A stretch of 64,000 nt of DNA, taken from Physcia stellaris (Eukaryota > Ascomycota > Lecanoromycetes > Caliciales > Physciaceae). The notes beneath the pieces were generated by a model. It was not told where the DNA came from. It did not search any database and saw only the letters and a program-made list of their open reading frames with translations. Below, one piece after another: positions 1,609-24,739 of this stretch. Positions within the stretch are counted from its first letter, which is position 1. Each line of letters begins with the position of its first letter. The stretch covers positions 558,001 through 622,000 of the forward strand of contig JABSSW010000011.1 of NCBI GenBank assembly GCA_018902385.1, read 5' to 3'. Made by a program: the position numbers and the translations under genes.

Positions 1609-1761
1609 TGTTGGAGTAAACTCACCATCAAAGACAATGCCAAGGCGTTATTCTGTTATAGGCTAGCGTGCAAACTTTGTACAATAATTCACATTCATCA
1701 CATGTACGATAAATAATATTATCATGAATATAAACACGTTGCATTTTACATATTTGTAACA
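1609..1761 (+). repeat. Copia 5' LTR (153 bp)
   Basis: Direct copy of 13175-13327, same length without gaps. It starts TGTTGGAG and ends TTTGTAACA. Of the 20 differences from the right copy, 13 are changed in the right LTR and 7 in this one if C/G is taken as ancestral. All lie at CpT or CpC on one strand or the other. Confidence 0.93.
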
Positions 1762-2971
1762 AATTATAAGTTCGACAATGTTTGTCAAACATCATTCGAA
1801 TCGATTTATATTATTTTACAACGTTCGAACGTTGATTTCATGCATCGATCGAAAAATCTTTGATTGATTAAACGACGATCAAGTTCGAAAACATCAAATT
1901 GAATTCACAACGAGTTTATCGTCATTTAATGTCGTCAATAAAATGCATATTGTTTACTCTAACGATCGTCATTTAATTTCTCAAAAATTCAAAAAATCAA
2001 CATCGACGTCGATCGATAAAAACGTCATTTATCGTTCAAACGAACGTCAAATTCGAACGCACGATCGATCACTCGATTTCGATAAAAACGTTTTTAAAAA
2101 ACACGAAATTTTACATACACAATTCGATAATTCAATGAATTCGTCATTGTTTCGAATCGATGTTTCGAATTCATTTGTTACGAAATGAAAAAAAAAACAA
2201 ATACGACGTGAAACTTACACGTTTTACACGACTTCACGAATCACATACGTTTTTTTTTTTTTTTTTTTTCATTTATACGATTCAAATTTTCAAACTCAAA
2301 CATCACAATGATTACGTCAAACATTATTCACAATTTTGTCGTTTTTATTTCAAAGTCAAAACAATATTTCAATTGAGAAATCGACGTCACAAACGATTTT
2401 CGAATCAATCACGTTGAATGAACAATCAATTTATCAATAAAATCAATGTTTATTGTCGAGTTTTTACACGACAAAAATATCGATTGAAATTTCATCGATG
2501 CAAAAACGAAAATCAAATTCACGAATTTTATCATCGTCGTCGAAAAACACGAACGAAATTTGAATAAAATTTTTTTTTTATTTGTTCAACAATGAACGTC
2601 AATTATCGCTTTTTTATCGTTGTTATAACGAATTCAACATTATTGATTTATTAAACAAAAATAACAAAACGTTTCAAAAAGAATATTTTCGTTTTTTTCG
2701 TCGATATCATTTTCGATTTCATTGATCGATTTGTTATTTTAACGAACGTCGAATTTTATATCAAAATCGTTGAATCATTACACAATCAATTGATCATCGA
2801 AAAGATTGATTCGAAATTCATTGTCGACGTATTTTGTCAAAATATTTTGTTGTTCAAAATGCACAAATTAATTCATTTCAATTACTTCGTGATTCGTCAA
2901 CGTGACGAGTGAATTTTCGAAAACACAAATCTCATCGAAATCGAAATTTTTTTTTTGAATTTCGTTAAAGT
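1762..2971 (+). pseudogene. Copia leader and gag 5' part, degenerate
   Basis: This is the stretch between the copia 5' LTR and the inserted gypsy element. It has only short open frames (for example 1943-2188) and no domain I can recognise. By position it should hold the primer-binding site and the start of gag. A pure T run of about 20 bases sits near 2250. The opposite half of the same gag lies after the nested element, from 9446. Confidence 0.6.
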
Positions 2972-3280
2972 TGTAAAACATTCAGAATTCAAATCAATAA
3001 AACATTGCGAGTCGAATCTCGATAAGATTATATCAAACAATTCGATCATCGAAATTCGATAAATCATGAAAACGATCAATTTGATCACGTCAACATCAAA
3101 TTTTCGATTGAATTCAACAAACTCATATTTTCGACTAGATCTCGAAATGTGTGTACGATTGAGCAAATTGATTGACTATATAAACAAAAGTCTGTAAGAT
3201 AGTTAGTTTTGCAATTATTAATTTAATTATACAATCGTTTTTGCTATACATCTTTGATGTCACATCTTTTGAGTTTTACA
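2972..3280 (+). repeat. Gypsy 5' LTR (309 bp)
   Basis: Gap-free direct copy of 9137-9445. My alignment finds 22 differences, all transitions: 19 in CpT context and 3 in CpA. A spurious minus-strand open frame crosses both copies, which is how the repeat first shows. Confidence 0.92.
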
Positions 3281-3329
3281 TTCTAATAATCATCATAATC
3301 AATAGATTAGCATCACTCGTGTATACAGC

Positions 3330-4260
3330 ATGTCTACATTTTTCATCAATATCATTAGCATTTTCACGAATTTTGAAAATGAATTCATTTTGAATTTATC
3401 AGAGCTCGATGTCATCATGAAAAAATATCGAGCATATATTCAACAACAACATGCTCGAATAAAAATATTACAACGTGCATTTGTATTTTCGATCGTTCAA
3501 ATTTTTGTTTTTAAGAAGAAATCGTTCTACATTAAAATAATGAAAAACAAATCAGAATTATTCGTTGAAAATAATTACAAAGAATGAATTCAATACGTTT
3601 GAAAAATGAAAAATCAATTCGACATGAATCAAATGAACGATTACGTCAAAAATTTTGACAAAATTAAATTCTTCTTTGTTGTAATTTTTTTAAAAAGAAA
3701 ATTTATCGCGCAATTATTCTGAAACGTCAAAATCAAAAACAATTCGAAAATCAATTATATTTGAAAGAAGTATGTCGACTTTTTAAAAAAATACTAAAGA
3801 ATTTTTCATTAAAAAGAAAAATAATTTCGAAAAATATAAAAACTATAAACAGCAAATCAATCAAACAATAAAAGATTACGATGCATATCGCATCGTTTTG
3901 TTTTCGAATTTACATGAATTTATGAAATTTTCATCAGCAATAGAGTTACAGAATTTCGTATTGAATTTAATTCAAAATCATCAGAATTTTTTGATCGAAC
4001 AAGAAATTGAAAACGACAAAGAAATAATTTTGAAACGTTTCAAACAACGAGAAGATTTACAACGCAAAAAACAACGCAATGTCAATCAAAATAAATTTGA
4101 TAACGACTTTAACAAACGCAAAAAGAATGAGAATAATTTCGATAAAAACGAAAACAACAATCGTCAATCTAATAGAAATCGACGAAAGAATCGAAAGAAC
4201 GATAAGAAATTCAAATTCGATAATTTTAATCGTGAGTCAATCAAATTCAAAAAATTATGA
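3330..4260 (+). pseudogene. Gypsy gag remnant
   Basis: Broken reading frames begin with a start at 3330 (MSTFFINIISIF) and resume at 3898-4260. The later part is rich in Lys, Arg, Asn and Glu and resembles the C-terminal basic region of fungal gypsy Gag. Its place directly after the 5' LTR and before a protease-like stretch supports this. No zinc knuckle can be recognised with confidence. Heavily mutated, not functional. Confidence 0.6.
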
Positions 4261-4418
4261 CGTTGAATCAAAATCGAATACAAAAATATCGTGAACAACG
4301 ATCGATACATAGATTGCGATAAATTTGAATGTAACATCAAAAAATGTAAAAATATTAAATCGAATACTCGCTCATTCGAGAAGACTTTTCATGAGTCAAA
4401 ATCAAAAAAATAATCGAT

Positions 4419-7400
4419 TTGATAATTTTCAATCAAATTGATTCAAAAAAGAATTCAATAACAGATGATCGAATGAATTCAAGCTCGAACGAATTCAATA
4501 CGTTCACTATCGAAATCAAAAGCGCAAAACGTCGTCGTAGAAAATTTCGCATAATCAAATGCAAAAAAATCAAAATCAAAATAAATAAAGCATTTGACGA
4601 AAAGAACAAACTGAAATTCGAAATCGTTATGAATTCAAAAGCAAAAATCAATTTAATAGATTATAAATTTGTTAAACGACTCGAATTAAAATCATTCAAC
4701 GTATCGAGTTGCGAAACAGTGATCATAGAAAATCACTCATTCAAAATTTATGAGATTTATTTCGTGCAATTCGAAATACAAAATGAAAACGACGTGAATC
4801 GTTTCTTTAACGATAGCTTTCTAGAAACAAATCTAGATTGAAACATGATTTTAAATCTATTCTGAATGCAATTATTTGAAATCAATATAGATTGAAATAT
4901 CGACAAAATCGAATCGTGATCGACGATTGTAAAATTATTTCTTTTCATCACGAATCGTATCGAGAAAATCGAATCGAAAGAATTAATCAATGCAATTTTC
5001 AATGAAAAAAAACATGTTTTCGTCATGTTCGTACAAATAATTTCTGACGAGATAAAATATTTGAATGACATACATATCGAACGACGATTACAAATCGACT
5101 TTGCTTTTGCGAAAATGAAAAAGAAAAATATCAAAAGTTTTTTTCTCGAAATCTTGAAAGAATTCGTTGACATGACAAATGAAAACAAAACATACGAATT
5201 ATTTGATCATGAATTCGACGATCACGCAATAAATTTAAAATCAAACAAAAAATCATCGTATGAATTCATTTACGCGTTGTTCGAAAACGAATTTAAAATT
5301 TTACAAATTTATTTGAATAAATATTTGAAAAACGAATTTATCAAATTTTTCATTTTTTCTGCGAGCGTTTCAATTTTGTTCGTTAAAAAAAAAACGAAAT
5401 TTTACGATTGTGCGTAAATTACAAAAATCTTAATTTTTTAACGATCAAAAATAAATATTCTCTATCATTAATCGACGAAAGTTTGAATCGTTTAAACAAA
5501 GTTCGCAAATATACAAATTTTGACATGATAACGATTTACAATCGACTTCGTATTAAGAAAAAAACGAATGAAAAACAACGTTCAAAACACGATACGAACA
5601 TTTTGAATATATCGTCATGTTTTTCGATTTTACTAATGCATTTGCAACGTTTCAAAATTTCGTCAACAAAATTCTGATCGAACGATTAGATTTGTCGATC
5701 ATTGTTTATTTGAACGATATAATCATTTATTTCAAAAACGAAACACAACACGTCGAAAACGTCAAATAAATATTAAATCGTTTAAAAAAGCACAAACTCT
5801 TTTTTAACATAGAGAAATGTAAATTTTTCAAAGATAATATCGAATTTTTGAATTTTATCGTTTCATCGAAAAAAATACAAATGCAACAAAACAAAATCGA
5901 AATTATACAAAATTGATCAGCATTTAGAAACGTGTTCGAAATTCTCGAATTTCTCGAATTGTGCAATTTTTACAAACGATTTATCAAGAATTTCAATAAG
6001 TTGACATTATCTTTGATTTTCATGCTAAAAAAATCAACAGAACTTTATAAAAAGAAAATTAAAAAAAAGCGAAATCGAAATAGAAATCACAATAAAGAAC
6101 GATTATCGAACGAGTTTTTGATTTTCGAAATTTTCGAATCATTCAAACGATTACGCAAAACGTTTATGAAAATTTCTGTTTTGCAACATTTCGATTCGAT
6201 TAAATTCATTCGTGTGAAAATCGACGTCTCGAATAAAACAATAAAAAAAGTATTTTGTCAATTAAACGACAAAGATCATTGACATTCGATAATTTATTTT
6301 TCAAAAAAGATGATACTCGCGAAATGTAACTATGAAATTCACGACAAAAAATTTTTGATCATAGTTTTCGCATTCAAACATTGACGTCATTATTTGAAAA
6401 AAACGAAAAAACAAATTTTCGTTTTGACGAATTATCGAAATCTCAATCGTTTCATGATTACAACAAAATTATCATTTCGACAAATACGATGAACACAAAA
6501 ACTGTCACGTTACAATTTTGTCATCGATTATCGTTTCGACAGTAAAAATTTTGCGAACGATTTGTCAAAACGATTTGATCACATGACGATCATCGAAAAT
6601 GAAATTGAAAATAATCGTCAAATTTTGACGCGTTTGCGACAATTTTTACAAACGAACTCAAACGAATTTTCGATTTATGTGAACGAAATCAAAGCAACGA
6701 TGCTTAAGCTCAAAGAAAATGAAAAAAACAATTTTTCGAATAATTTTCTTGACGTTTCAAATACATCAAACGTGATTATCGACGAGTGAAAAACATTAAT
6801 ATTGAGTAATGCAACGATTTTCGAATCGATCGACGAAATGATTGCGCGAAAACATATTCATGAACATGATACAACATATGACGATAAAATCATTGACAAT
6901 TTTGTCGAATTGATTCGTTCATTGCTAAAGAAAAATTCATGTGCGATTCAAATGAAACAGAAATTAATTATTTTTGAAAAGTCACACTCGCTTTGAGTAA
7001 ACGAGAAAAAAATATTATGACATGAAAATTGTTTGTACGTTTCATCGAGTTTGAAAAAGAACGTTATAAAGTCGAATCATGACAATTTTTTCGCAAATCA
7101 TTTCGATGTAAAACGCATTCTGAAATTAATACGACGAAAATATTATTGATCGAATGAAAAAAAAAAAAAAATTTTCAACATGATTCAAACATGCGAACAC
7201 AAATAAAGAAATATTGCGAAACATGTGCAATTTGCAAAAGAAACAAGACATCTCGTTACAAATCATACGAAAAACTATCGTTTTTTTATATCGAAATTCA
7301 AATGAATTGACATTACTATAAACTTCGTGACAAATTTATTTGAAAGCAAAACATGAAACGAGACAACGTATAATTCAATACTCGTTGTCGTAAATTGTTT

Positions 7401-8150
7401 AACGAAAATGACACACTACATCTCGATCAAGAAAACAGTGATCGCAGAAAATCTCGTCGAAATATTGATTCGAAAAATCATTAGATTTCATGATTTTTTT
7501 TCATCGATAACAACAAACAGAAAATCGATTTTTATTTCGAAATATCACGACGTTTTATGCTATGCATTAAAGATTAAATTTAAATTATTCACGATTTATC
7601 ATTCGCAAACAGATGATCAAACGAAACGTCAAAATTCAATCATGAAACAATATTTCAGAATTTACGTCAATTTTCAACAGAATAATTGAATAGAATTATT
7701 GTCGATGATTGAATTTGTTTACAACAATAATAAACATGCGTCAACGCAAATGTCGTCTTTTGTGACAATGCAAAAATATATTTCGAGAATGTTTTTCGAG
7801 AAATTTGCAAATTTCAAAATTAAATCAAAATTTGCGAAAAACATGTCGAAGAGTTGATCGAACTGATGAAAATATTGAAAATCAATTTAGCATTCGCACA
7901 GAAATAACAAATCAAATACAAAAATGCAAAAACAAAAATAAAACGCTTTTACGTAAAAGATTACGTCAACGTCAATGACAAAAATATTCGCATCAAACGC
8001 AATAAAAAACTCGAATGAAAATTTTTCGACTCATTCAAAATATTCAAAACAATAAAAAATCAAACATATCAACTCGAAATATTCAAACGTTGACGAATTT
8101 ATGACGTTTTTCACGTCTCGTTGCTGAAAAAAGTCAAATCTAAAAAAAAA
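4419..8150 (+). pseudogene. Gypsy pol remnant (protease, RT, RNase H, integrase)
   Basis: Protease-like sequence lies in 4419-4841 (motif KINLIDYKFVKRLEL). Reverse transcriptase lies in 5025-5900: the HAINLK and CVNYKNLNFLTIKN blocks are there, and the catalytic YLDD box reads YLND at 5707-5718. RNase H follows from about 5930 to 6590. The integrase zinc finger (CETCAICKRNK) is near 7215 and the integrase core runs to about 7700 (HSQTDDQTKRQNSIMKQY). A chromo-like tail ends with a VFHVSLLKKV-type motif near 8110. Conserved tryptophan codons read TGA at 5914, 6280, 6382, 6490 and 7687. At least one TAA (near 5766) also occurs. The element cannot encode active enzymes. Confidence 0.88.
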
Positions 8151-9136
8151 AAAAATTTCGCTAGAATTCACGTATCAATCGAATATCGAAAATGACGAAA
8201 AATTCACGAACGAGAAATTTTGAATTGAAGTCATTCTGAACAGCAAAATCTATAAAGAAAATCAAATTTCGAATAAATCATACAGTGAATCAGAGTTCTA
8301 TTATTTGATTCAATGAAAAATTACGAAAAACGTATTTGAAAATTAATTGCAATGATTAAACATTTAAAAGATATGTTTCGAGAATTTTACATGAATAATT
8401 CGAAAAAAAACGATGTCAACAAAATCATCAATCGTCGACGCGTTCGACGTCAAATAAATGTAATTTTCACGATGAAATCGTTGACAAAAAAATTTAATTT
8501 TCATACGTAATTCGATGTTGTTTATTGTTTAAAATTTACGACGCATGAAGAATTGAATCGTGTCAAAAACATTTTCAGAAATTGTTGTTCGATTTGACGA
8601 AACGATGAATATATGAAAATGAAATGAAAAAAAAATCGAAAAAATTTTCGAAATTTGATATATCGAATGCGATCGCGATTACGACGTCTTTCGCGTTTAA
8701 ATTTTTTTCATCAATTCATGAATTCGATATACGAAAAAGAAAAACAAAAAATAAAAAATGATTCGAATTCAAAATTCACTGTCATACAATTAATTGTTCG
8801 TCATCAAATCGAAAATTGTGAATTGTACGAAATCAAACATTCGATTTTGAAAACAACAAACATTTGAATCATCAAATCATGTTTTTTTTGAATCATTCAA
8901 AAAAATGTATTTTCAAATTTTTAACGCAAACTGATTAGAAATCGAAAATGAAAAATATTCAAATGCGAAAATCACGATGACAATGATTTTTCAATTCAAC
9001 GTTTTCGAATGCGAAAATCGCGATTACAACGATTTTTCAAATCTTTAAAATGAAATATATTTACACAAGCTCAAAAATCTCGATGTCGAAAAATATGAAT
9101 CATTTCAAAAAATTTCGATATTAAAAAAAAAACGCA
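8151..9136 (+). other. Gypsy 3' internal region, no recognisable gene
   Basis: AT-rich, hypermutated sequence between the end of pol and the 3' LTR. Only short open frames occur (for example 8655-8867) and none shows a domain. An A-rich tract just before 9137 is where the polypurine tract would be. Confidence 0.5.
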
Positions 9137-9445
9137 TGTAAAACATTCAAGATTCAAATCAACAAAACATTGCGAATCGAATTTCGATAAAATTATATCA
9201 AACAATTCGATCATCGAAATTCGATAAATCATGAAAACGATCAATTTGATCACGTCAACATCAAATTTTCGATTGAATTCAACAAATTCATATTTTCGAC
9301 TAGATCTCGAAATGTGTGTACGATTGAACAAATTGACTGACTATATAAACAAAAATCTGTAAAATAATTGATTTTGCAATTATTAATCTAGTCATACAAT
9401 CGTCTTTGCTATACATTTCTGATGTCACATTTTTTGAATTTTACA
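9137..9445 (+). repeat. Gypsy 3' LTR (309 bp)
   Basis: Direct copy of 2972-3280, same length. See the left copy for the difference pattern. Confidence 0.92.
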
Positions 9446-10085
9446 AAAATCATCATCGATACGATAACAAAATCAAATTCAATTGCATTGATCGTTGATC
9501 GTTTCGAAAAATTTAAACGTATTCGTTTCAATACATTAAAATTTGAATACATCGATTTTTTTTGCATTAATCAAAAATGCATAAACAACGATTTCATTAA
9601 ACATGATTTTGAAAAATGTTATTATAATCATTCAAAAAGCGTTTTCAAAAAATAAATTGACAAAAACATGTTTGATCATTCATACGACAAAACTTTGAAA
9701 AAAATTCAAAATTCACAATAACAATCAACGTCGTTGATTGAATTTTGAAAACAAATTTTGTTCATTAATTATTCAATCAACGATATGTTGTGATACACAA
9801 ATTCGAACGTCAACATTTACGTATGCAAAAATCGAAATTTTATACATTTTTTCATGTTTCACATCGAACATGTTGTAATTGCAAGCAAAATTCGTTTCAT
9901 TGTTAAAAAAAAAATCAAATTATTGCTCGTTTTTTCTTACAACAATGCAAATGATCAATTTATTGATTTGTCAATTTTTTACATGTCAAACTCGTCAACA
10001 AACTTGTTGTCAATATCAACATTCGAAAAACAAAACGTTTATTGAAACATTGAAAATCACATTTTCAAATATTAAAACAAATTAA
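9446..10085 (+). pseudogene. Copia gag 3' part and pre-integrase region, degenerate
   Basis: Resumes the copia element after the nested insertion. A Cys/His-rich piece near 9565-9645 (CINQKCINNDFIKHDFEKC) looks like a decayed Gag zinc knuckle followed by a W/YxxHP-type end. From about 9940 the motif FYMSNSSTNLLSISTFEKQ matches the pre-integrase (GAG_preint) block of copia polyproteins. Frames are interrupted. Confidence 0.65.
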
Positions 10086-10198
10086 TCGAATATGTTTTTT
10101 TGCAAAACAACGAATTATACGTTTTGAAATTACAATCACATCAAATGATTATATTGTCAACAACATCATCATTGTCGTTCATCGTATGACATCGAAAT

Positions 10199-11226
10199 TT
10201 GAATTACATGAATTTTTCTTTATTACGTCAATATTTTAAAAAATTGAATTATTTTTATCAAAACGATTGCAAAAATAATCATTGCGATGTTTGCAAATTA
10301 ATTAAAACAAAAAAAAATCGAATAAAAAAATATTCATCATGTCGAAAAGCGTTTCATATTATTCACATTGATTTAATATCAATAACGATCGAAAATTTTG
10401 AAAATGAACGTTATTACATCAATATCATCGATGACAAATTACGTTAAACGAAAATATACATCGTTAAAAACAAACACGAATGATTACAATATTTTATCAA
10501 ATACATCAATTGAATCAAACGTCAATTCGATATTGACGTCAAAATCGTACGTACAAATTATAACAACGAATTTCGCAACACGCAATCAATCAATTATTTT
10601 GACAATTAAAACATTGAATTCAATTCAATTTTAACAAATGTTCAAAACGTCAATGATGTAATCGAAACACATCAACGCATTTTCATCATCATGATCAAAA
10701 TAACGTTATTGACGAAAAACATATCGAATTTTTTGTGATCAAACATCACACATGCAATGACGTATATCAAAAATCGACGTTCAATTTCGTATTTGAAAAA
10801 TCAATTATCGTTCGAAAATATTTACGAACAATTTTCGAAATTAACGAACATGTATTCATTCGAATCAATCGTTTACGTCGTCATCAACAAAAAAATCAAA
10901 AATCATTTGAAATCGAACGTCGAAAAAAAAATTTCATCGAATATGACGATAACATCATTTATCGAATTTATATATCGATTAATCAAAAAATCGAACGCGT
11001 CAAAAATTTCGATATTTATAATTACAAATCAATATCAAAAATTGACATCGAATTCGATGAAAATTTTATCGAATCAATTGTTGATTCAACAATGATGAAC
11101 TTTTTGTTATTCACATTGAATTCATTGCAAAAAAACGAGAAATTCAATTTTAAATTTTTCAAAACATTGAAATTCGATTACATATCAAAATCAAATTTTC
11201 AAATATCATTATACAAAAATCAATAA
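10199..11226 (+). pseudogene. Copia integrase remnant
   Basis: The piece HCDVCKLIKTKKNRIKKY (about 10284-10345) followed by FHIIHIDLISIT matches the zinc-binding and first catalytic blocks of copia integrase. Around 10800-11010 a stretch like IIYRIYISINQKIERVKNFDI matches the C-terminal integrase block of this family. Many frames are broken. Confidence 0.75.
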
Positions 11227-13136
11227 CGTCACAACAACAAAAATATTTTTAAAAAATTTCACAAAAATACGTTACAATGCGCTCAAACAAAAAAACAATT
11301 CGAATAAATTTTTTTATAAATTTTATCGTTTACAATGTCATAATTTTTGTCAATTTCACGATGTTTCATTTAGCAATGCGTGAATTGTTCGCAAATTGAA
11401 ATTCAAATTCAAATGATTTAATTGTTTTGTTCGACAACATTGTTGATTTTCAATCAATTTCAATTACAAACGTTGAATTTGATACGATCAATCTCGTTTC
11501 ATTGTTGATCGATTACGTCGAAAACATCGACGTTTTCTCGTTCGAAAAATTCATAACAATGTTGACGATCGACGAAAAAAAATCAAATAATTACAACGAC
11601 GTCGCACGAAGTTTTCACTTCTCACAATGATTAAAAGCAATGAGAAAAAAATTCGATTTTCTATCGAAAAATCACATTTGAAATTTAATAAATTTCACGT
11701 TCGATGAAAAAAAATCGTTGAACGATAAATGAATTTACAAATTCAAACGCAATGTCGATAACGTTATAATACGATACAAAATTAAATGATGCGTTAAAAA
11801 CTTTTTACAACAATACGACATTGATTTTGATTAAATTTTTGTTTTCGTCGTCAAATCAATGATTTTTCGAATTTTATTCGTCGTTGTCGTCTTTTTGAAT
11901 TTGAAAATTGAACAAATGAACGTGAAAATTGCGTTTTTATACGAATTCATTGATTCAAATATTTACGTTAAATATTCGATTGAATATGACAATGACAAAA
12001 CTATTTGCAAATTGAACAAAACATTGTATAATTTGAAACAATCATTCAAATTTTGATATAAACGTTTGTTCGAATTTCTTTTATAAAAATTAATTTTCAA
12101 TTTTTTCGACGCGAATCAAAGCATATTCGTTACGAATGTTGATTTCGAAAATTTCATCATTATTACATGAATCGATGATATCAAAATCATTGTTCTCAAT
12201 AAAATCATGATTAACAAAACAAAAACAAAATTCAATAACGTTTTCGATATGATTGATTTTGAATCAATAAATTTTTATTTTGATATAATCATTTTCAAAA
12301 ATCGCGAAATGCACATAATTCGTTTTAATCAAAAAACATATATTCAACGCGTCGTTAAAAGATTCGATTTACAAAATGCGAAATCAATTTGAACATTTAT
12401 GAAAAAATCATTTGATTCAATTTTCAACGTTAATCAAATCATCGATCAAAATATCAAACAATATCAAACAATAATGAATTCAATCATGTTTGCAATGATA
12501 AAAATTAAATCAAATGTAACGAATGCGATTTTTATAATCAATCGATTTGCTCAAAATTTCAATTTTAATCATATCAAAACAATCAAACGTGTTATAATTT
12601 ATTTCAATTTCACGATCGATTTTTGCATAATTTACGACGATAATTTCAACAAAAAATTAAACATCGAAACATATTGCGATGCAAATTGAATTCGTGACAA
12701 AATTTTCAAAAAATTCATCGAAACATATTTGTTTTTATTAAACGACGATTCGATAAATTGAATGTCAAAATTTCAATTCATCGTAATTACGTTTATTTGC
12801 GTCGTCGAATATATGATTATATCATTCGTCGTCAAAAAAATTATTTGATTTAAACAATTATTCGTTGATTTACGAACTCAAAATCAATCGAACAATTACG
12901 TTAAAATATTGATAAATATTGACAATCAAAACGTTAAAACACTCAATGAAAATTCGATACATCATGATCGCATCAAACACGTCGATATCGTATATCATTA
13001 TGTAAAAAACGAAATTAAAAAAAGTCGCATTGAATTCAAATACATAACGATTGACATCATGTCAATCGACGATTTCATCAAATTTTTATTTTCGTTCAAA
13101 TATCAACGATTTATCGACATGTTCGAAATGAATTAA
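11227..13136 (+). pseudogene. Copia reverse transcriptase and RNase H remnant
   Basis: RT blocks are clear: QMNVKIAFLYEFIDSNIYV (about 11915-11970), then CKLNKTLYNLKQSFKF ending in TGA at 12054 where the family has Trp. Block MIDFESINFYFDIIIF follows at about 12250. RNase H runs from about 12430 (IMNSIMFAMIKIKSNV) to YCDAN plus TGA at 12687 (Trp in the family). It continues to INIDNQNVKTLNENSIHHD near 12910-12965 and ends at 13136, 38 bp before the 3' LTR. Another Trp-to-TGA change lies at 12759. Confidence 0.87.
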
Positions 13137-13174
13137 ACATCATGATTTTATATTTTTGCAAATTCGAAAAAAGA

Positions 13175-13327
13175 TGTTGAAATAAATTCATCATCAAAAA
13201 CAATGTCAAAACGTTATTTTGTTATAAATTAACGTGCAAACTCTGTACAATAATTCACATCCATCACATGTACGATAAATAGTATTATCATGAATATAAG
13301 CACGTTGCACTCTACATATCTGTAACA
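13175..13327 (+). repeat. Copia 3' LTR (153 bp)
   Basis: Direct copy of 1609-1761, starting TGTTGAAA and ending TCTGTAACA, followed at once by the ACATT duplication. It carries 13 of the 20 C-to-T/G-to-A differences between the pair. Confidence 0.93.
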
Positions 13328-13332
13328 ACATT
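13328..13332. other. Target-site duplication, right copy (ACATT)
   Basis: Exact match to 1604-1608, directly after the 3' LTR end. Confidence 0.9.
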
Positions 13333-13463: not shown

Positions 13464-16400
13464 TCAGATATAATCCATCCCAGTCTTCTCAATAAACCTT
13501 TTATACCTAGATCTCATCGCCATGGGAACATGCAAAATCAATGCAGCCAGTCGGTGTCTCTCGAACGGGAGGTTTTCAGCCCTCAAAGCATCAAGCACAT
13601 ACGTCGCAACAGTCGCATTAAGTAAGGGAGGGTCTCGAAGCAAAGCCGCTGCTTCGGGGACGGTAAAGCCCTGCTCATGCCACAGGGCGTGAGCGCGAAG
13701 GCACGCTGGCGCTGCCGTAGGTTTGTAACCTAGAGGAAGCGTGTTGCGCCAGTTGGCAACCCATTCATTCGCTGAGATGACTTCTGGTCGGCATGGTTGG
13801 GCCGTTGATCTTGGTGCTCGCTTCGGCGTAGTTGCAGGTAATGTGGGAGCTTTTAATTTAATCTTGAGAAAGTCTCTTGCGAGTTCCTCGATCGAAGGTG
13901 GCTCGCCAGGCTGAGCAGTCATCTGATCATCCTCTAAGTCTTCCGGCTCGTCGTCTGTATCAATCGACACCCCCTCGCAAGTCGAATTGGTAGGTTCAAC
14001 TCCGCGTGATACGGTCGTGGAGGCGTAGGGTTCAGCTGTTTCCTCTTGTGCTCCAGGATATGAAAAAGCTGAAAACCAGCATAGCTATCGGATGCCGCAT
14101 CTAACCCGAATTAGCAGACGCAGCTGTTGATAGGCTGATGTCACTTACACTGTACCTGCTTAAGATCCAGATCTTGGGACCAATCACTTGTCCGCGCGTC
14201 ACCTTTCCACAAAGGTAATTCAAGGTGCTCCTCTACCTGCGTAGCAAGATTGACAAGTCTTTTGTTGATGCAGCCGGCATCTCCATTTGAGTACTTGACC
14301 AATTTGTACAAATGACTGAGCTCAAATAAGCCTTTAGACTCAATACCCATAAATCGTCGAAGTCGAGTGCAGTCTCCTTTAATAGCAACACCGACTTTAG
14401 TGATATGTGGGGATTCCATGATGGCTCTGAAAGTTGGTGCTACTAAGGTGTCAAGAGACTCATGTTCTCGAAATCGAGCAACGTGGAATAAGGCTACACG
14501 TTCTTCCGAAGCAATCTGGATCAGTGATACATTCTTCCTGACCCCTTCCTTTGCCTGCGCATTTGCCTTCCACTCAATGTCGAAACCAATGACAATTTCG
14601 TCCTTGAACATTTGAGCAACTCGCTCGGTATCTGCCTTACTCTTACAGTAGTGAACCTTAACCTTCTCATTGTTTGGACCAGCATAAAGATCGTACGACC
14701 AGTAAACGGGCCGTAGATTCGAGTCTTCGTTGGGGAAACGTTTATCTCCGATGTGGCTCATCGCAAATCCTTTGGGACCTTTGGGTAAGGGATGATTTGT
14801 CGCAGGCTGAGAGTGCCCCTCTGCACTGATGGCCTTTACTTGAGCAGCATGAGATACATCTTCCGATATTTGTGATTCATAGTCATCATCAACCGCGTTA
14901 CAGTACCGAGAAGGTAAATTTGTAGACATTTGAGGTGTACGTCCAGAATTGTGGAGTATAGGAGAGGTTGCTGGATCCTGATCGTCTTGAGGCAGCCGAC
15001 ATGCCTCATTGCTGTAGCGGCGTCTTGTGATTTTGGTATCTTCGTTCTGACGTTCGGCAATTTTCTCGCCTACAAGCCCATTTCTTGCACGGGCTGTGCT
15101 CCTATTGATTCTCATCATTCTGACAGAGGATGCGCCAGATGGAAGCGCGTCGTCGTACTTATGACTGTTGCTAAGCTCCTGGGTGGGCATGGAGCTCGAA
15201 ACACTGGATCTTGAGCCGTAACTCATCCTCAAAATCCTGTCCGCCACTGGAGCACGTAGTGGTGTGCTTTTGGTGACTGACTTAGATCGCATACTAGCAT
15301 CAGTCTTCCTGGGCAATTTATCTGCTGCACGGGATCCACTGGTCTGACCACTTATAGATCCAGCAGCTCGGAAGTGGACCTTTCTCGGCTGCAGCACCGC
15401 GTCCTTGTTGCTTTCCTCGCAAACCTTCGCGAGCGAATTGCCTGGAGTCGAAGATATATCCATACTAGCATCAGTCTTCCTGGGCAATTTATCTGCTGCA
15501 CGGGATCCACTGGCTAGACCACGTATAGATCCAGCAGCTCGGAAGAGGACCATTCTCGGCTGCAGCACCGCGTCCTTGTTGCTTTCCTCGCAAACCTTTG
15601 CGAGCAAATTGCCTGGAGTCGAAGATTTATCTTTCCCCTGATGTTGTAGGTTAGCACCTTTTTTCTTCTCGTAAGCCGTCTTTTCCGTTTGATAGCGCGT
15701 GAAAGCCCAGAGCTCGGCTTCTAACTGGCCCCAGCTGCCACCAAAAGCGGGCGTTATTATCAATCCCTTTAGACCCGAACCCCCAGCTCGATCACTGACA
15801 GCCCTAGCGATTTTGTGTTGGACGAGACCAATGCTTAAACTATTAAGGCTGTTGGTCACACGTATAGCTGACTGCACACACGGGCCATGAACGTATTGTT
15901 CCTGAACGAGTTGCTTGTAGGCAACAGCCTCGGGAAATTCTGCCCCAAAAACACTGGTCAATCTTTTCGAAGCCTTTGTTTTGACGATGAGAATTGCAGG
16001 ATTGATTTTTCGTTCTGTTTCGGTCGTAGCTCGTTCAAGTAGGCCGACCATTTGCCGCCTACAATAAAATCTTTGCAGGGTATGCCAAGCACGGTACACT
16101 TCCCCCCGTGAGACAAGGACATTAAGGATAGCATCCTCGTCCTGATACTTCTGAGCTAGAGATTGAAACGTTTCCTTCGCCGACGTTCCTTCAGACCCAA
16201 TTTCAAGGCATTTCTCAATGTCACGGCGAACCAGCATAGCCCTACGAACACCATGAATACTGGACTTGGTGGCAATCGATCGATCCAAGATTTCGTCGTG
16301 CATTTCTAAAAGTTCTAGCCTGTTGAAGAGGGGTATGTAAGAAGATCCAGCCTTGGTATTCCTGATATCAGCTATCAAGCCATCTATGATTTCCTCTATG

Positions 16401-17739
16401 CAATCAATTATTCGTGTTTGGCGGATGCGAGACCTGTCTAAGATCTTGAGCATCGTGTCAAGGGTCATCTTGACCCTCACATCCGGTGTAACGACGTCCA
16501 TATACTTAGGCAGTGGCAATTGCGCTAATCGAGAGATTTCTGACGAGAGCAAATATTCTTCAGAGATCAAAGGCTCTTCTTTTTTATAAGCAGCCCAGTC
16601 ATGTGGATAAGGATTGCGTACGTTATAAGGAGCAAAATTAGGAAAACCAGCCGCCATAGTTAAGGTGTTATGATCACCAGAGAGTGAAGATACGATTTTG
16701 CCAGTATGCGACGAAGCCGGATTTGTAGAGGAAGTTTTCGCAGATACTAAACGAGATATCAGCACAGCAAAGCACAGGTAGAAGCAGAACTTCGAGTTGA
16801 TACCTTGGGATCGTGGTTCGGCGCTCTTATGTTCAGACACTGGTGGCTGCTGAGCTATACCCTGCTTAATTGGCGAGGATTTCACCTGGGGTTTGCGACG
16901 GGATGGGGCCACCAACGCGAGCGTTGGTACGCCTTGGGATTCTGGTTTCGCAAGCTTGTGTTCAGACATACTGGTATTAAACGGTTGCTTTCGAGCTGTT
17001 ATCTGCTTAGATGGCGTGGATGCTACCTGGGAGTTGGGGGACGGAGTCTTCAATGTGAGCGGAGGTTTGATCCTGCCAGGATCTTTACGGATCGCCGTTG
17101 GTTCAAATGCCGGCTGAGGATCCTGTACAGTTTGGGTCTCTGCAGGCGAAGGTGCCTTAGATGTATCTTCGCAAGACATGCACTGCGCTAGGATATCGCC
17201 AAGTTCCTCGTCATCAACTCCAAAGCTATCATCGTCATCTTCTTCGGGCCCAAACAGATTGAGTGCCTTATATTGCGTAGTAGAATATGGCCTGAAACAC
17301 GGCTGCTGCGATGTAGTGGGTGGGGGCCTCGTTGGATCTAAGGCTGGCGATTGGCACTGTCGTGCTACGGTTGAAAAGTCCTGAATTCGCGTATCACCCA
17401 CTGTCGGAATGCCATTGCGAGATGTTATTCTTGCCGGGCTGAATAGAATACTCTGGGAAGGCTGCCATCTCTGATCTTTCAGACCTGCTACAGGCGGGTT
17501 AATATTAAAAGGAGTCTTCCGAGGATATGTCACAGGTGGAGATCTAAGGCTTGAGGTAGGTCAGTGACTGTAGGAGAAACCTTAGATTCTAGTACATACA
17601 CGGGCGAGCTGCGATCTGGTGGACTAGCAGCTGAGGTCTCGTTCTCTGACCCGCCAGCACTGAGGGCAGACATGGCCAGACCAGCACTGTAATGACCACG
17701 GTGGTTGAGTGCTGAGGTCAACCGTTGGCGTAGGAGCAT
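13464..17739 (-). CDS. WRN-type 3'-5' exonuclease-domain protein (fungal), with a likely frameshift
   Basis: A nuclease of the DEDDy (DnaQ/Werner exonuclease) family, probably acting on DNA ends in the nucleus. Exons: 17739-17600, 17543-16804, 16746-14149, 14100 onward. The introns have good signals (GTATGT...CACTGAC...TTAG; 57-nt GTATCA; 48-nt GTAAGT). The first 850 or so residues are low-complexity, with an acidic patch (EEDDDDSFG) and an internal 57-residue tandem duplication. The exonuclease domain is at the C-terminal side: IGFDIEW (D, E), VGVAIKGDCTRL (D) and YAASDSYAGFQLF (Y, D). Downstream the frame breaks at a G5 run (13970-13974 on the plus strand as C5). The continuation 13969-13464 (…AHALWHEQGFTVPEAAALL…) is in another frame but matches the helical C-terminus usual for this fungal family. 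The start codon is the first ATG of exon 1; a later ATG is possible. The stop lies 137 bp from the copia LTR. Confidence 0.8.
15290..15631 (-). repeat. 171-bp tandem duplication inside the exonuclease gene
   Basis: Two adjacent 171-bp units (about 15290-15460 and 15461-15631) encode 57 residues each, starting SSTPGN and containing AKVCEESNKDAVLQPR and SGSRAADKLPRKTDASM. The copies differ at only a few residues, so the duplication is recent. It is in frame. Confidence 0.85.
16747..16803 (-). other. 57-nt intron that stays in frame if retained
   Basis: GTATCA donor and CGTTTAG acceptor on the minus strand. The 57 nt contain no stop and would encode a hydrophobic insert (YLCFAVLISRLV) quite unlike its polar surroundings, so I read it as an intron. 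Retention would keep the frame. Confidence 0.7.
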
Positions 17740-19219: not shown

Positions 19220-22200
19220 TCATTCGCTCTCATCACACAGTGCCAGCAGCCCCTCCATTGCAGCATTCTCCTTGGTCTGCCTAGTCTCCATCTTCGATCT
19301 GAATTCGATGATCCCTGCTTGGCTCTCGTTGATTCTGGTCGCACAATCTTCTGCTGCAGACTGAAAGGTCTCTAAAAGCTCTTTGGTTGCCTTGCTTCTC
19401 TCCGATCGGTGAAAGTCTAATTCGCGTTGACGTCCTTCTTCAAATTGATCAATGATATAATGTCCTTGATTCCGGTAATCCTTGACCTTATCCCTAATTG
19501 CAGTTTCCTTGTCGACCAGATTTTGTGTGAGTTGCTAATGCAGAAGTCAGCAATAAAGCAAAAGCCTCAGCAGCTTGCGCTTACATGTCCGATTTCGCGT
19601 AGCTGGACGAAGATATCTCTTTGATCAGATCTAAGCGCTTTGCTCCATGCATCACCGGGGTCACTTTCACCCTCTGACGGTTCACTCTCGGCATTTTGTT
19701 GCGAGCTGGAGCTAGGGGAGCTTGGGCTCGATCCAGATGTCGTGCTGGAATCATCGTCTCCTGGTGACCCACGCTCGCCTATGAGAGTCTTATCCGGGTC
19801 ATTATCCCTAGTATTCTCATCACCAACTTGCTTGTCACGACTAGCTTCTTCTTTCTCTACATGGGTAATGCTGGATTTGCGTAATGTTTCCATAAATTTG
19901 CTTACAGGTCGATCTTGAGCCATCTCGATGAATGGATCCTTGGGGTGTTGAGGCACCACCATAGCATTGGTTTGTAAGCTAACAAAATGTCCACTGGGCT
20001 GAACCGTATGCGCTGTCATGTCTGTGATGATACTGCCAGGGGCATTGGGTGAGCTTGGTCTGTGCTTTCTGTTACTCGCCACAACAGGTCTGCATTCGGC
20101 AATTGTTGGCTGGGCGCTATGCTGAGCAACGGGTAATTTGGGCTCACCACTTGTGTTGACTTGGACTGGAAAGTCAAGCCATCCGTCAGTCTCGGAGACC
20201 TCGCTGAGAGGTGGAGATATCCTGACAATAGGGGCCGTAGCTTTTGGGATCGCTAGGCTCGACTTTCGCGAGTGGTGGAAAGGCAAGGGACTGCCGAACT
20301 CATCAACCCGAGAGCTTTGTGAGCTGTGGACGCGCATTTGCCCATTAGTATTATATACAATCTGCTTCTTGACCTGCATGTCAAGGTCATCTTCGGCTAC
20401 CCTTGTATTCCTGTCATATATCTTTAAGCGCTTTCCATTTTGAGATTGGCGTGGAGCCAAATAATTGTCATCGACTATATCTGGGAGCTTCCTCTTCATG
20501 CTTTGGCTTGCTTCAGATGCTGGACCTGCATGGAGACTTGGAATTGTTGTCTGAGGAGGCGCTTTGCTCTTCTTTGTGGACCGTATCCCTTGATTTCTCG
20601 GTCCGCTCGCGTCAAAGTGAATTAGATTAGGCTTCCTTGAGATTGTAAGCAGTTTCTTGTCCGGTGTTTGAATCTCAGCTCCAGCTATGTCGGGACCAGC
20701 ATGAGGTTCCGACTCTAAGACCTTGCTCTTCTTGGCTTGCCGAGGGTCCGCTTCTTGCAAAGGTCTCTTTTGCCTCCCTTTCGAATTTCTCTCTTTCGAG
20801 ATCTCGTCTGGTGTGTCGGCAATTAGATGTTGACTTTCTGCACAGATTTTTCCAGAGTCCTGGCCATGTTGGGCTGCAAGATGTTTGCGCTTAGGCCCCC
20901 TCCCTTCCTCCCGTGACTGCAGAGCAGGTATTGGGGATAATGCTGCTTCTAGCTTGCTAGCTATCGAGCGCTTCTTCGTAGGTGCTGGAGGTGCTTTAGT
21001 TTCCTCTTCTCTGCTCCCTTGATATTGCTGCTGCTGTCGATTGCCTTTTGAAAGATGTGGTTCTTCTGATAGCGAATGACCATGATGTGTTATGTTCGGA
21101 AGAAGAGGTTGTGCTAGCGCAAGCTCCTCGTATTCTTCGAAGTCACCAAAGACATCATGTCCTAGATTGCTGTGATCGCCCTCAGCTTCCCTATTGAGCA
21201 AAACTCCCTTATTGTTTTGCTCGATTTGAGCACTTGCTGTGGGGACGTTGACAGAAACACTGACCACATCACCTGGACCGGTTTCATGCCTAATGGTAGA
21301 TACCGTGAAGGCTTGTGCGGTTTGAGGTGTCAAAGCCTTGGGCTTTAGATCGGAGGGATGTTGGATGTTTGATTCATTTTCAGCGATATCATTTAAAAGG
21401 TTGTTAGTAGCCTGCTGCTCCCGGGGAGCTTCGTCCCCCGGCTGCTGTCGGTCTGTGTTAGTTACCGTATCCTCAATCGCTTCAGGCCTTGCTGCAATGC
21501 CGATCTTGGTGGATCCAGTAGGCGCTATTATGTCCGAATTCAAGGTCTCTCCTTGCGGAGAATCATACTTGGCAGCTGTAACCAAGGCTGCATGATGTGA
21601 AACATGATGGCGTTGCACACTATCTGGGGTTTGCTCTTTTTGGTAATCGCCGTCATTTGGCATATTATCAGGCAGAGTGAAAGCTTTCGGGTTTCTAGCC
21701 AACGGTTGGCCATTGGAAGGTCGAAGTGGATGGTCTTTTTGGTGCTCAGAAGATGCTTTCTTAGATGTTTCGGAAGGTTTTATCTGATTCTTTGCGTGTC
21801 TAGAAGTATGTTTTGCGTTTAGAGCATTCTCAACAAGAGACTTCTTTGGCGTGTGGTGATCCTCATCAGCGGAATCTGCAAGGCCCTGGATCCTTTTATT
21901 TGCCTTAAGAGCTGCAGCTCTTCTGGGCTTTCCCGTTGTCGGAGTTGGAGTCAACTTTGTGGATAAGGCTTCCATGTGCTGGCTAAGACCAGTCTTACTT
22001 TTCTTGGGCTTCGCAGGCATACTGCGCTTCTTTGTAGTTTTGATCTTGGTACTGGGCAACGTAAAGTCTGAACCGTCATCAGTTTGGAAGGCTTCAGACC
22101 AGTCAACCTGCTCGTCTTGATCATGTAAATCGCTTGTCTTCGTTTCCGGCTTGCTCGCATGGTTTGATACTTTAGCCGGGACCACTTCTGCTTTAGGACG

Positions 22201-24739
22201 TGGGCGTGAAGAATTGGAGGTAATTGCGGGAGTGGGCCCTGGCCTGGACGCTTGTTTGTGCTTTGCCTTAGCTATCATAGATGCCTCGGGTGCCTGAACC
22301 GTGCGAGATTCGGTTCCATCCTGATCAGAAGTTCCTTTAGGCTGACGCTTCTCATTTTCGAACCGCACTTTTGCTGGTGCCTTTGGTAGACCGCGATTTT
22401 TATCACCTCGTGAAGTTGGCATGGCTTGTGGCTCTGCTAACCGCTTGGTCGAAGCTGATCGCTCCGTTACCGAAGAATTCTTTCTAGCATTACTTGTATG
22501 GTTCCGCGACTGGTTCTGATCGGGAGAAGGCACCAGCTGGGGTTCCACAACGCGACCATCAAGATCGCGAAGCTGCTTGCTCAATTTCGAACCTCGAATT
22601 TCAGGTGCCCTAGGTTGCTGAGTAGCATGCGGTGCAGCAAGCGCTGACGGTAGCTTGACAGGAGGTAAGCGATTAATTTCTGAACGTTCTGCGCTCGGAG
22701 CATACAACGGGTCAAGTTTGCTAGGCTGTCGTTGAGCACAGTCTTTAGCGGATATCTCTACAGCTGGGGCTTTCGACGTTTCCGCTTTACGTCTGCTTCC
22801 AGTATCCTTTGAAGCCTTGGATTCCCCGTTATCGATGGGCCCTTGAATCCTACCTTCTAAACTCAATCCTTGTGATCCTCGTGGATGACTGCTATTTACA
22901 GGTTGTTTGATCGACGTGGAATGGACCTTGACATTACCAGTATTCGGGTCATCATGGGAGACTTGATTGTTTCGAATCTGAATTGGTGCTGCCTGCTTCT
23001 CCTGAATCGAAGTTGGCTGTATAATACCATCTGACGACATTTTTCCATCGATGCGAGGTGCGCTTGTGTGCCTTCCGCCGAGGATATGTGTGTTATCGTA
23101 ATGATTTTCATCATCTGCCATGCAGGTGATCGTATCAGACGCAATAGTTGTAAGCTCTTGTAATCTCGTTAGTTGATCATCTGTAGAGTCACTGACTTCT
23201 CTGTTCAAGGAACCGTCCGCTTCATCAGACCGAGCTGTTGCTGCCTCGGAAGGTAGAGACATCGGTTCGTACTCCAGCAGGCTAGGAGATATAGTGTTGG
23301 CTGGTAGTGATCTTCGAGCTTCTAGGGCCCTCTCTACGGTCCTTACATCTGGCTCATAGTCGAAGACCATCGCTATAGCATTGGCATGACAAGGTTTATA
23401 ATTCATGAGTTGATTATCTTTACAGGTTGAGAGCGTAACGTTGAGACAGCCTACTATCCTTGACTGAGACTGACTATGCTCTGGACGGCCTTGAGATAGG
23501 GAATCTGATTCGATGGTCTTGAAATGTGACTCGAAATTTGATATCGCATCAAGAGGAATGTCTATGTAGACGGTAGGTTGAGCGTTGGCGGCAGGTACCA
23601 TGATGCTCAACATTGTATTGACAGTGACCAGGATCGTAGAGTGGTTCCCAACATCAAAAGTCTTGCCGGCAAATTCTATGGTGTTTGCAAAGACACCGAC
23701 AGCACGCCTGTGGCTCTAATATCAGTACATGAGAGATCAAAACGGCCACAACCACCTACCGTTCATTCGCCAGATCTTGCAGATTTGTCTTTTCAAAAAA
23801 GGAATGTAGGTCCCACATCCATTGAGCAGAGGTGTGGTACTTTGGAAAGCTGTTCGGAATATTGAACGGCATGTCATCTGCCGCCCAAAGCCTGTCCTCT
23901 GGCAATTCTTGCCCAACAATCTCACGGATGATGCAGGCAGCAGTGAACTTGAGGATTTCGGATTTTTGGCCAAGAACGATATGACCTAGCGAATGCCTAT
24001 GTGATGTTAGCTCGTGCATGGCACTCATCTGAGAGAAGATGGTGTTACAGTTCCACGTCTTTGCATCTTTCTTGCATCTGCTTCTTGTTTGCTGGACAGC
24101 CAATAATGAGAATGAGGACGAAGAGACCGTACTACAATGATTGGTCAGAGAAAGTTCCATCTTGTAGCCGACCTGATACGTACAGCTCGTCGGGCAAGCT
24201 CGGACTTATTGCTGTCAAGAAACTTGGAGAAAGCATGTAACATGTGGTTCACACCCAGAGCCGCTTTATCTGCACAAATCCGCTCGCTCGCTGGACCGTC
24301 CGCAGCAGGAGCATCGTGAAGGCATTCCTGACTTGAATTAACACGGGAGTTCGACACAATCGTGTATGAGAGGACAAACTGCTAGTAGGCAATAGCCTCG
24401 AAGCTGACCACGACATTCGACTGACAATCTGAGAATCCCGCAAAATAGCATAAGACTTCTTCCGTCGAGACGTCTAAAGAGGTTTCCGTCGTCGCTGTCA
24501 ACCATGGCAACAACAGCCTCAACGTCTTTTGCCTCAATGTTGTCTCTTTGCCTGAAGATAAGCTTGAAGTCTTCCTGAAGATTGGGAGGGACTCTGGGTA
24601 GATCAATATTAGCGGTTGCTCAAATGAGGTGGAGAGAGGATCTTCACGCGACACAGCCAGGGCGTGCACGAGCTTGCTGAAGAACCTCCACGAATTTGGC
24701 AACAGCGGTGGATTGTTGGGAAGGCGTTGCCGATGCCAT
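19220..24739 (-). CDS. Large disordered protein with folded N-terminus and C-terminal coiled coil (possible Red1/SYCP2-like meiotic axis protein)
   Basis: Seven exons by my splicing: 24739-24648, 24593-24380, 24327-24184, 24131-24049, 23996-23760, 23713-19585, 19534-19220. All phases agree and each intron is 46-54 nt with a branch-point-like CTRAY. The product is about 1737 residues. Residues 1-256 look helical and globular (MASATPSQQSTAVAKFVEVL…; EDFKLIFRQRDNIEAKDV). A beta-rich segment follows (VGVFANTIEFAGKTFDVGNH…YIDIPLDAISNF). About 1200 residues of Ser/Lys/Pro-rich disordered sequence come next. The last 104 residues form a probable coiled coil (KETAIRDKVKDYRNQG…RSERSKATKELLETFQ). This order (ARM-like, PH-like, long linker, coiled coil) is that of SYCP2/Red1/ASY3 axis cores. 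The assignment rests on layout only, not on a recognised motif. Other long chromatin proteins remain possible. Confidence 0.75.

Follow-up and report, generated by a model that had tools for sequence, protein, structure and literature searches.

Repeat-induced point mutation (RIP) of Neurospora crassa is the closest described counterpart of the process that we report here for the lichen-forming fungus Physcia stellaris (Lecanoromycetes, Caliciales, Physciaceae). The process was recognised in a hypermutated island of nested long terminal repeat (LTR) retrotransposons. The island lies in a 64,000-bp stretch of DNA that was analysed as a whole and is referred to below as the window (contig C11, positions 558001–622000, of an assembly of 43.97 Mb in 147 contigs). 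Both in Neurospora, where a second, DIM-2 branch exists beside RID, and in P. stellaris, C is changed to T on both strands, repeats are affected, unique flanks are normal and genes of the RID and DIM-2 types are present. The dinucleotide preferences of the two are different. For Neurospora the published order is CpA>CpT>CpG>CpC, and in Trichoderma CpA and CpG are described as about equal, followed by CpT and then CpC (PMC5496416). In P. stellaris repeats the order is CpC>CpT>>CpA>CpG, and the stop codons created are mostly TGA.

In Botrytis, Sclerotinia and Magnaporthe CpT is reported to be mutated together with CpA, and CpC does not occur in the main text of that report (PMC4352252). CpT mutation is thus common to these fungi and P. 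stellaris, which differs in its preference for CpC and in its low rate of CpA mutation. Hypermutation at CpG or TpCpG is described for the basidiomycete Microbotryum and CpG-biased mutation for Rhizoctonia; these are also context-dependent C-to-T changes, but the context in P. stellaris is the opposite one, with CpG best protected. A kingdom-wide screen of 2025 describes CpA preference as shared by RIP-like defences (PMC12543289). On the other hand, CpT to TpT has been presented as the form that predominates in alignments of RIP-capable fungi (PMC7882544), and RIPCAL found CpT in excess in Tad1 of Neurospora and in some repeats of Stagonospora (PMC2621366). These two reports temper the novelty of CpT mutation, not that of CpC mutation. 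No case of CpC-led RIP was found in the literature searched, which consisted of open-access papers. The genome note on P. stellaris describes a 46.57-Mb assembly with 43.32% G+C from an ascospore-derived culture, and the term 'repeat-induced' is absent from its main text (PMC7513301).

In the island, a gypsy-type LTR element is nested inside a copia-type one. Both elements are repeated in the genome, with 40–44 matches per family search. Features of the island, in window coordinates, are as follows (TSD, target site duplication):

1609–13327, + strand: outer copia-type LTR element, hypermutated, with a 153-bp LTR pair, TG..CA ends, TSD and an RVT_2 match
1604–1608, no strand: copia TSD ACATT, 5′ copy, identical to the 3′ copy
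1609–1761, + strand: copia 5′ LTR, with 5 CC/GG and many CT/AG left in its first ~55–70 bp
13175–13327, + strand: copia 3′ LTR, with 1 CC/GG left
13328–13332, no strand: copia TSD ACATT, 3′ copy, identical to the 5′ copy
2972–9445, + strand: inner gypsy-type LTR element, nested in copia, with 309-bp LTRs and an RVT_1 match
2967–2971, no strand: gypsy TSD AAAGT, partner of AAAAT
2972–3280, + strand: gypsy 5′ LTR of the 309-bp pair
9137–9445, + strand: gypsy 3′ LTR of the 309-bp pair
9446–9450, no strand: gypsy TSD AAAAT, one transition away from AAAGT, in an AG (CpT) context
5551–5859 (contig C11 563551–563859), + strand: degraded RVT_1 stretch of the gypsy element, with 1 TGA and 2 TAA stops
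11703–12401 (contig C11 569703–570401), + strand: degraded RVT_2 stretch of the copia element, with 5 TGA and 2 TAA stops
1763–13174, no strand: zone of 11,412 bp without any CC or GG dinucleotide

The first-pass annotation of this DNA had described CC, GG, CT and AG as nearly absent from the island while CA and CG stayed frequent. For CC and GG the depletion is stronger than was claimed: none is present in 1763–13174, although the base composition of the island itself would predict about 401, and the density to the right (123 per kb in 13328–64000) about 1,400. CT/AG, in contrast, are strongly reduced rather than nearly absent: the 327 present amount to ~21% of the roughly 1,560 that the frequency in 15001–64000 would give. 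CA and CG show little depletion (1,458 CA where about 1,620 would be expected, and 1,310 CG against an expectation of about 1,310), and TpC is enriched (873 versus an expected 539). The nearest CC/GG outside the element stand 20 bp to the left (1589) and 25 bp to the right (13352), and the remainder of the window is normal. Since 5 CC/GG are left in the 5′ LTR and 1 in the 3′ LTR, the outer LTRs are incompletely mutated and mutation fades across them.

Comparison of the LTRs within each pair reproduced the earlier count exactly: 42 differences, 20 in 153 bp of copia and 22 in 309 bp of gypsy, all of them transitions. The contexts, 33 CpT, 6 CpC, 3 CpA and no CpG, were likewise recovered on recounting, with 14 CpT and 6 CpC changes in the copia pair and 19 CpT and 3 CpA changes in the gypsy pair. 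Both strands were affected: the changes in the copia LTRs divide into 10 C>T and 10 G>A, those in 300 bp of the gypsy LTRs into 10 and 11. Both members of each pair had lost bases; of the copia differences, 13 have the C or G in the 5′ LTR and 7 have it in the 3′ LTR, and for the 300 bp of gypsy the numbers are 12 and 9. CpC seems a minor target in these counts because it was already exhausted; it is in fact the stronger one. A saturated target is invisible in an LTR comparison, and mutated copies were therefore compared with less mutated ones.

When the window copia element was compared with a copy on contig C20, C-to-T changes were found at 287/291 CC, 392/418 CT, 61/560 CA and 5/396 CG. The 745 C-to-T changes were accompanied by 4 transversions in 3,716 sites and by only 11 changes in the reverse direction. 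A second mutated copy, on contig C54, gave 288/291, 363/421, 34/560 and 8/396, respectively, against the same reference. Another gypsy family (gypsy-B) has two unmutated copies with long open frames, L035 and L036, which are 95% identical; one of them served as reference. Ten mutated copies were taken from 44 matches, four (L041–L044) directly from the search and six (L045–L050) chosen across the range of identity. Compared with the intact relative they had lost 3377/3631 CC (0.93), 2798/3654 CT (0.77), 272/3526 CA (0.08) and 155/3479 CG (0.05). The control comparison of the two intact copies gave 14/371, 12/371, 11/355 and 7/350. In the lightest mutated copy 293/360 CC, 171/363 CT, 9/352 CA and 7/348 CG were changed (480 C-to-T changes, 18 transversions); loss of CpA and CpG was at the intact–intact level although most CpC had gone. 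Expressed as raw hazards, CpC exceeded CpT 1.1–2.9 times, with values near 2 before saturation and the lowest ones in nearly saturated or diverged copies, and CpT exceeded CpA 12–46 times; CpG was lower still.

The same order was seen in the family of the window gypsy element (gypsy-A), for which 19 of the 30 fetched loci (>6,990 bases; the 11 shorter loci were omitted) were compared pairwise. C-to-T fractions in subfamily 1 were 0.90 for CC (162/180), 0.69 for CT, 0.07 for CA and 0.04 for CG, and in subfamily 2 they were 0.96 (43/45), 0.74, 0.12 and 0.09. The middle stretch of all 30 loci contained, per locus, 0–7 CC (both strands), 17–253 CT, 211–512 CA and 200–498 CG. The CpY context (Y, pyrimidine) put forward in the first-pass annotation thus holds for the window copia element, ten gypsy-B copies and 19 gypsy-A copies. 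The annotation had considered that repeat alignments might instead show CpA as the main context, or no C-to-T bias once a proper ancestral sequence was used; in the three families compared here CpA was not the main context, and the bias was kept with polarity known.

The bases at positions −1 and +2 had little influence. In nine gypsy-B copies (L042, which has a history in common with L041, was omitted here and retained in the totals above) loss of CC ranged from 0.92 to 0.95 and of CT from 0.75 to 0.83 depending on the −1 base, and from 0.87 to 0.97 and 0.76 to 0.84, respectively, depending on the +2 base. The 3′ C of CpC was spared in L041 when a purine followed (CCA 1/93, CCG 0/86). In the same copy the two strands differed in loss of CpC (177/197 versus 116/163), a difference which may reflect strand-wise events.

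CpA is a minor target, not a forbidden one: its loss was 0.11 in the window copia element and 0.12–0.16 in the diverged gypsy-B copies L048–L050. In the latter CpG loss was 0.04–0.10, and L049 and L050 contained the most transversions (66 and 70). The CpA loss of 0.11–0.16 in these four elements, above that of CpG, may be due to a weak CpA side activity or to other decay.

Targeting of CpC on the complementary strand turns TGG (Trp) into TGA, so TGA-rich stops are predicted, while CAA, CAG and CGA should mostly survive because their contexts are CpA or CpG. In reverse transcriptase stretches matching RVT_1 (150 matches, the best 150 of 527 candidates) 250 TGA, 33 TAA and 3 TAG stops were found, and in those matching RVT_2 (137 matches, from the best 150 of 165 candidates) 401 TGA, 101 TAA and 3 TAG; 10 and 4 stop-free matches, respectively, are included. 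The proportion of TAA in RVT_2 is in keeping with the CpA leak of the copia element. DDE_3 transposase genes, which are of the DNA-transposon type, had 47 TGA, 6 TAA and 2 TAG in 23 matches. In an intact gypsy-B stretch of 933 codons there are ten TGG codons, of which 7, 10, 10, 10 and 10 were lost as stops in five of the ten mutated copies; the 51 CAA, CAG and CGA codons of this stretch were turned to stops in 0, 0, 0, 1 and 3 cases. Stops thus fall on Trp rather than on Gln or Arg codons because CpA and CpG are largely spared. For the same reason longer open frames may survive CpY mutation than survive CpA-type RIP. An open frame of 163 codons is present at window positions 10735–11226, inside the degraded element. 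Very long open frames are found to the right of the island, at 14141–17533 (1130 codons), 19567–23613 (1348 codons) and 30507–35312 (1601 codons).

Mutation histories of the gypsy-B copies were nearly independent, with phi coefficients for CpT sites of −0.05 to 0.28 in 44/45 pairs. The remaining pair, the lightly mutated copies L041 (contig C95) and L042 (contig C51), shares most CpT mutations (phi 0.82), which suggests that a mutated segment was probably duplicated afterwards. The unmutated copies L035 (contig C5 near 1,165,500) and L036 (contig C12 near 59,300) have normal CC within the element as well as in the 1.5 kb flanking it on both sides. Their presence beside many mutated relatives may mean escape from the process or recent arrival. 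In ten 1-kb stretches, taken at 10 of 20 random places in the genome, two were AT-rich, one with no CC and the other with 4 CC per kb (both strands), and eight were normal. G+C content of the most mutated copies was roughly 22–26%; degraded AT-rich repeats are also known from Cladonia rangiformis, where the transposon peak is reported near 16% GC (PMC12542154), lower than here.

Canonical RIP indices called RIP in 0/44 windows of 500 bp across the island. The TpA/ApT ratio of 0.44 and substrate index of 1.38 of the island are even less RIP-like than the values for the remainder of the window (0.66 and 1.28). An index matched to the observed context, (CpY+RpG)/(TpY+RpA), where R is a purine, was 0.055 in the island versus 0.940 outside. 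Repeats of Endocarpon pusillum are AT-rich and degraded as well, and they are reported to meet CpA-type RIP indices (PMC3897900), unlike the P. stellaris island. As the standard indices are blind to the island, surveys that rely on them would miss such systems.

The first-pass annotation had suggested that the mutation spectrum reflects a RIP-type deaminase or methyltransferase pathway, or another cytosine-mutating process acting on repeats, and had advised a look for RID and Dim-2 homologues. Three cytosine-5 methyltransferase genes (PF00145, four matches) were found in the genome; the names RID-like and DIM-2-like that we use for them come from general knowledge. The large protein encoded on contig C3 (L002), whose BAH match of 19 bits is below the cut-off of 30.8, is taken here for DIM-2. 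We call the proteins encoded on contigs C5 and C6 RID/Masc1-like, the comparison being with sequences other than Neurospora RID and Ascobolus Masc1. NCBIfam gave the three proteins only the general name DNA (cytosine-5-)-methyltransferase, with the DIM-2-like one below cut-off, so that the RID and DIM-2 names are provisional. The C5 and C6 proteins group with single-domain fungal homologues. The C5 gene is annotated as a 932-amino-acid protein (G7Y79_00005g016670, P0121), to which the frame is 99% identical over 99% of its length. The C6 gene, L001, which encodes a shorter protein, was found as a PF00145 match at 791557–792528 (134.5 bits, cut-off 22), and its long frame carries SPPCQSFSP with the PCQ catalytic motif.

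In a quick tree of 62 chosen sequences, in which branches are long and deep forks unsupported, L001 fell into a clade of 20 sequences (SH-aLRT, the Shimodaira–Hasegawa-like approximate likelihood ratio test, 99) apart from the clade of P0121. The L001 clade contains a protein from a Heterodermia metagenome-assembled genome (MAG) and many unnamed sequences; another Heterodermia MAG protein is in the P0121 clade with Usnea and others, so that Heterodermia has both types. Six of the 16 columns diagnostic of the L001 clade are located within 26 residues from the catalytic Cys, and near PCQ there is Gln in 11/11 members of the clade and His in 11/11 outsiders compared (P0030 was left out of both groups). 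L001 is taken to be intact because its frames resemble the Heterodermia protein, and it is predicted to be a second, divergent RID-like methyltransferase.

These data make a RIP-type methyltransferase pathway with CpY preference, as proposed earlier, the best reading; the spectrum in three families and the methyltransferase genes speak for it, the enzyme and the timing being our inference. With a probability of roughly two in three, the nested LTR retrotransposons of the island were inactivated by a RIP-type process which depends on a pyrimidine directly after the target cytosine and which is carried out by a C5-methyltransferase of the RID/Masc1 family in the sexual phase. C-to-T polarity, mutation of both strands, the CpY context, normal DNA next to the element, mostly independent copies and the TGA-rich stops are seen directly in the sequences; the process would be aimed at multi-copy DNA, and the methyltransferase would act during the sexual phase. 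A plausible carrier of the changed specificity would be L001; the RID-like protein encoded on C5 and the DIM-2-like protein encoded on C3 are other candidates. Of the properties of RIP, C:G to T:A transitions on both strands are found in the copia LTRs, in gypsy-B and in the window copia element; repeated DNA is mutated and unique flanks are spared at this island; and a methyltransferase that we would call RID/Masc1-type is encoded on both C6 and C5. CpA preference, which is typical of RIP rather than strictly defining, is absent (272/3526 CpA versus 3377/3631 CpC in gypsy-B). The effect extends to three LTR families as judged from DNA and to DDE_3 elements as judged from stops.

Several observations weigh against this interpretation. 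CpA is partly hit, as is seen both from its loss in the window copia element and in L048–L050 and from the 101 TAA among 505 RVT_2 stops in the matches listed. The C20 copia reference was probably itself lightly mutated, since there are 4 TGA in its RVT_2 stretch. CpC loss in L041 is unequal between strands, and the unmutated pair L035/L036 indicates that not every repeat is caught. In a review, Neurospora DIM-2 is given a CpT preference, and catalysis by RID in vitro is listed as undetected (PMC13297926).

That last report also bears on the most serious competing possibility, that a heterochromatin-guided methyltransferase of the DIM-2 branch favouring CpT and CpC, and not a RID-family enzyme, is responsible. 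A large methyltransferase that we take for DIM-2 is encoded (L002, with the sub-threshold BAH match), its Neurospora namesake is the enzyme credited with a CpT preference (PMC13297926), and DIM-2 with DIM-5 is said to drive a second RIP pathway (PMC12543289). Yet the latter branch is described for single-copy regions flanked by repeats, whereas CC/GG resume 20–25 bp outside the island, and in the parts of the literature covered DIM-2 is nowhere said to prefer CpC or to leave CpA and CpG alone; we consider this explanation unlikely, at about the level of an outside chance. Somewhat less probable again is slow decay, in which repeats are methylated at CpY, as in methylation induced premeiotically (MIP), and deaminate spontaneously with no active mutation step. 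Chemistry and substrate would be the same, and copies are indeed graded from lightly to fully mutated. However, mutation came in bursts relative to transversions: the window copia element carries 4 transversions beside 745 C-to-T changes, the lightest gypsy-B copy 18 beside 480, and the 20 differences of the copia LTRs include none. This imbalance makes spontaneous decay of CpY methylation less likely.

Editing at reverse transcription, an APOBEC-like deaminase and ultraviolet (UV) damage all yield C-to-T changes, and lichens are exposed to the sun. They mainly read the 5′ neighbour, though, and here it is the 3′ neighbour that decides, with little effect of the 5′ base; the 3′ C of CpC is spared before purine in L041, TpC is raised and the LTR changes are balanced between strands. 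An editor linked to reverse transcription is further disfavoured by the DDE_3 stretches, which, as judged from their stops, show the same richness in TGA. The 5′-base context and strand bias in retroelements that are expected of APOBEC-like editing were not found, and we regard this group of mechanisms as very improbable. Still less credible is compositional bias, that is, elements free of CC from birth. The CC-poor stretches that were examined closely are all transposable elements, as this idea would have it, but it is already refuted by relatives which hold CC (291 in the C20 copy, 474 in L035, 499 in L036), and changes between the window copia element and the C20 copy go one way. On this evidence all the explanations in this paragraph were rejected.

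The RIP-type process with a 3′ pyrimidine requirement can be taken a step further. It is possible, although we hold this only tentatively, that a lichen-fungal lineage re-aimed RIP, the divergent methyltransferase of the L001 clade reading the 3′ pyrimidine and mutating nearly CpY only, so that CpG and most CpA stay intact. At its strongest, the claim is one of a RIP variant not met in the literature searched, for which there is a plausible candidate enzyme.

The preference in P. stellaris is close to the reverse of the known fungal RIP preference: CpC, which is reported to rank last in Neurospora (PMC5496416), ranks first here. With two RID-like proteins and one DIM-2-like protein encoded in the genome, and one dinucleotide class left almost untouched, the choice of target in RIP would become testable by enzyme swaps.

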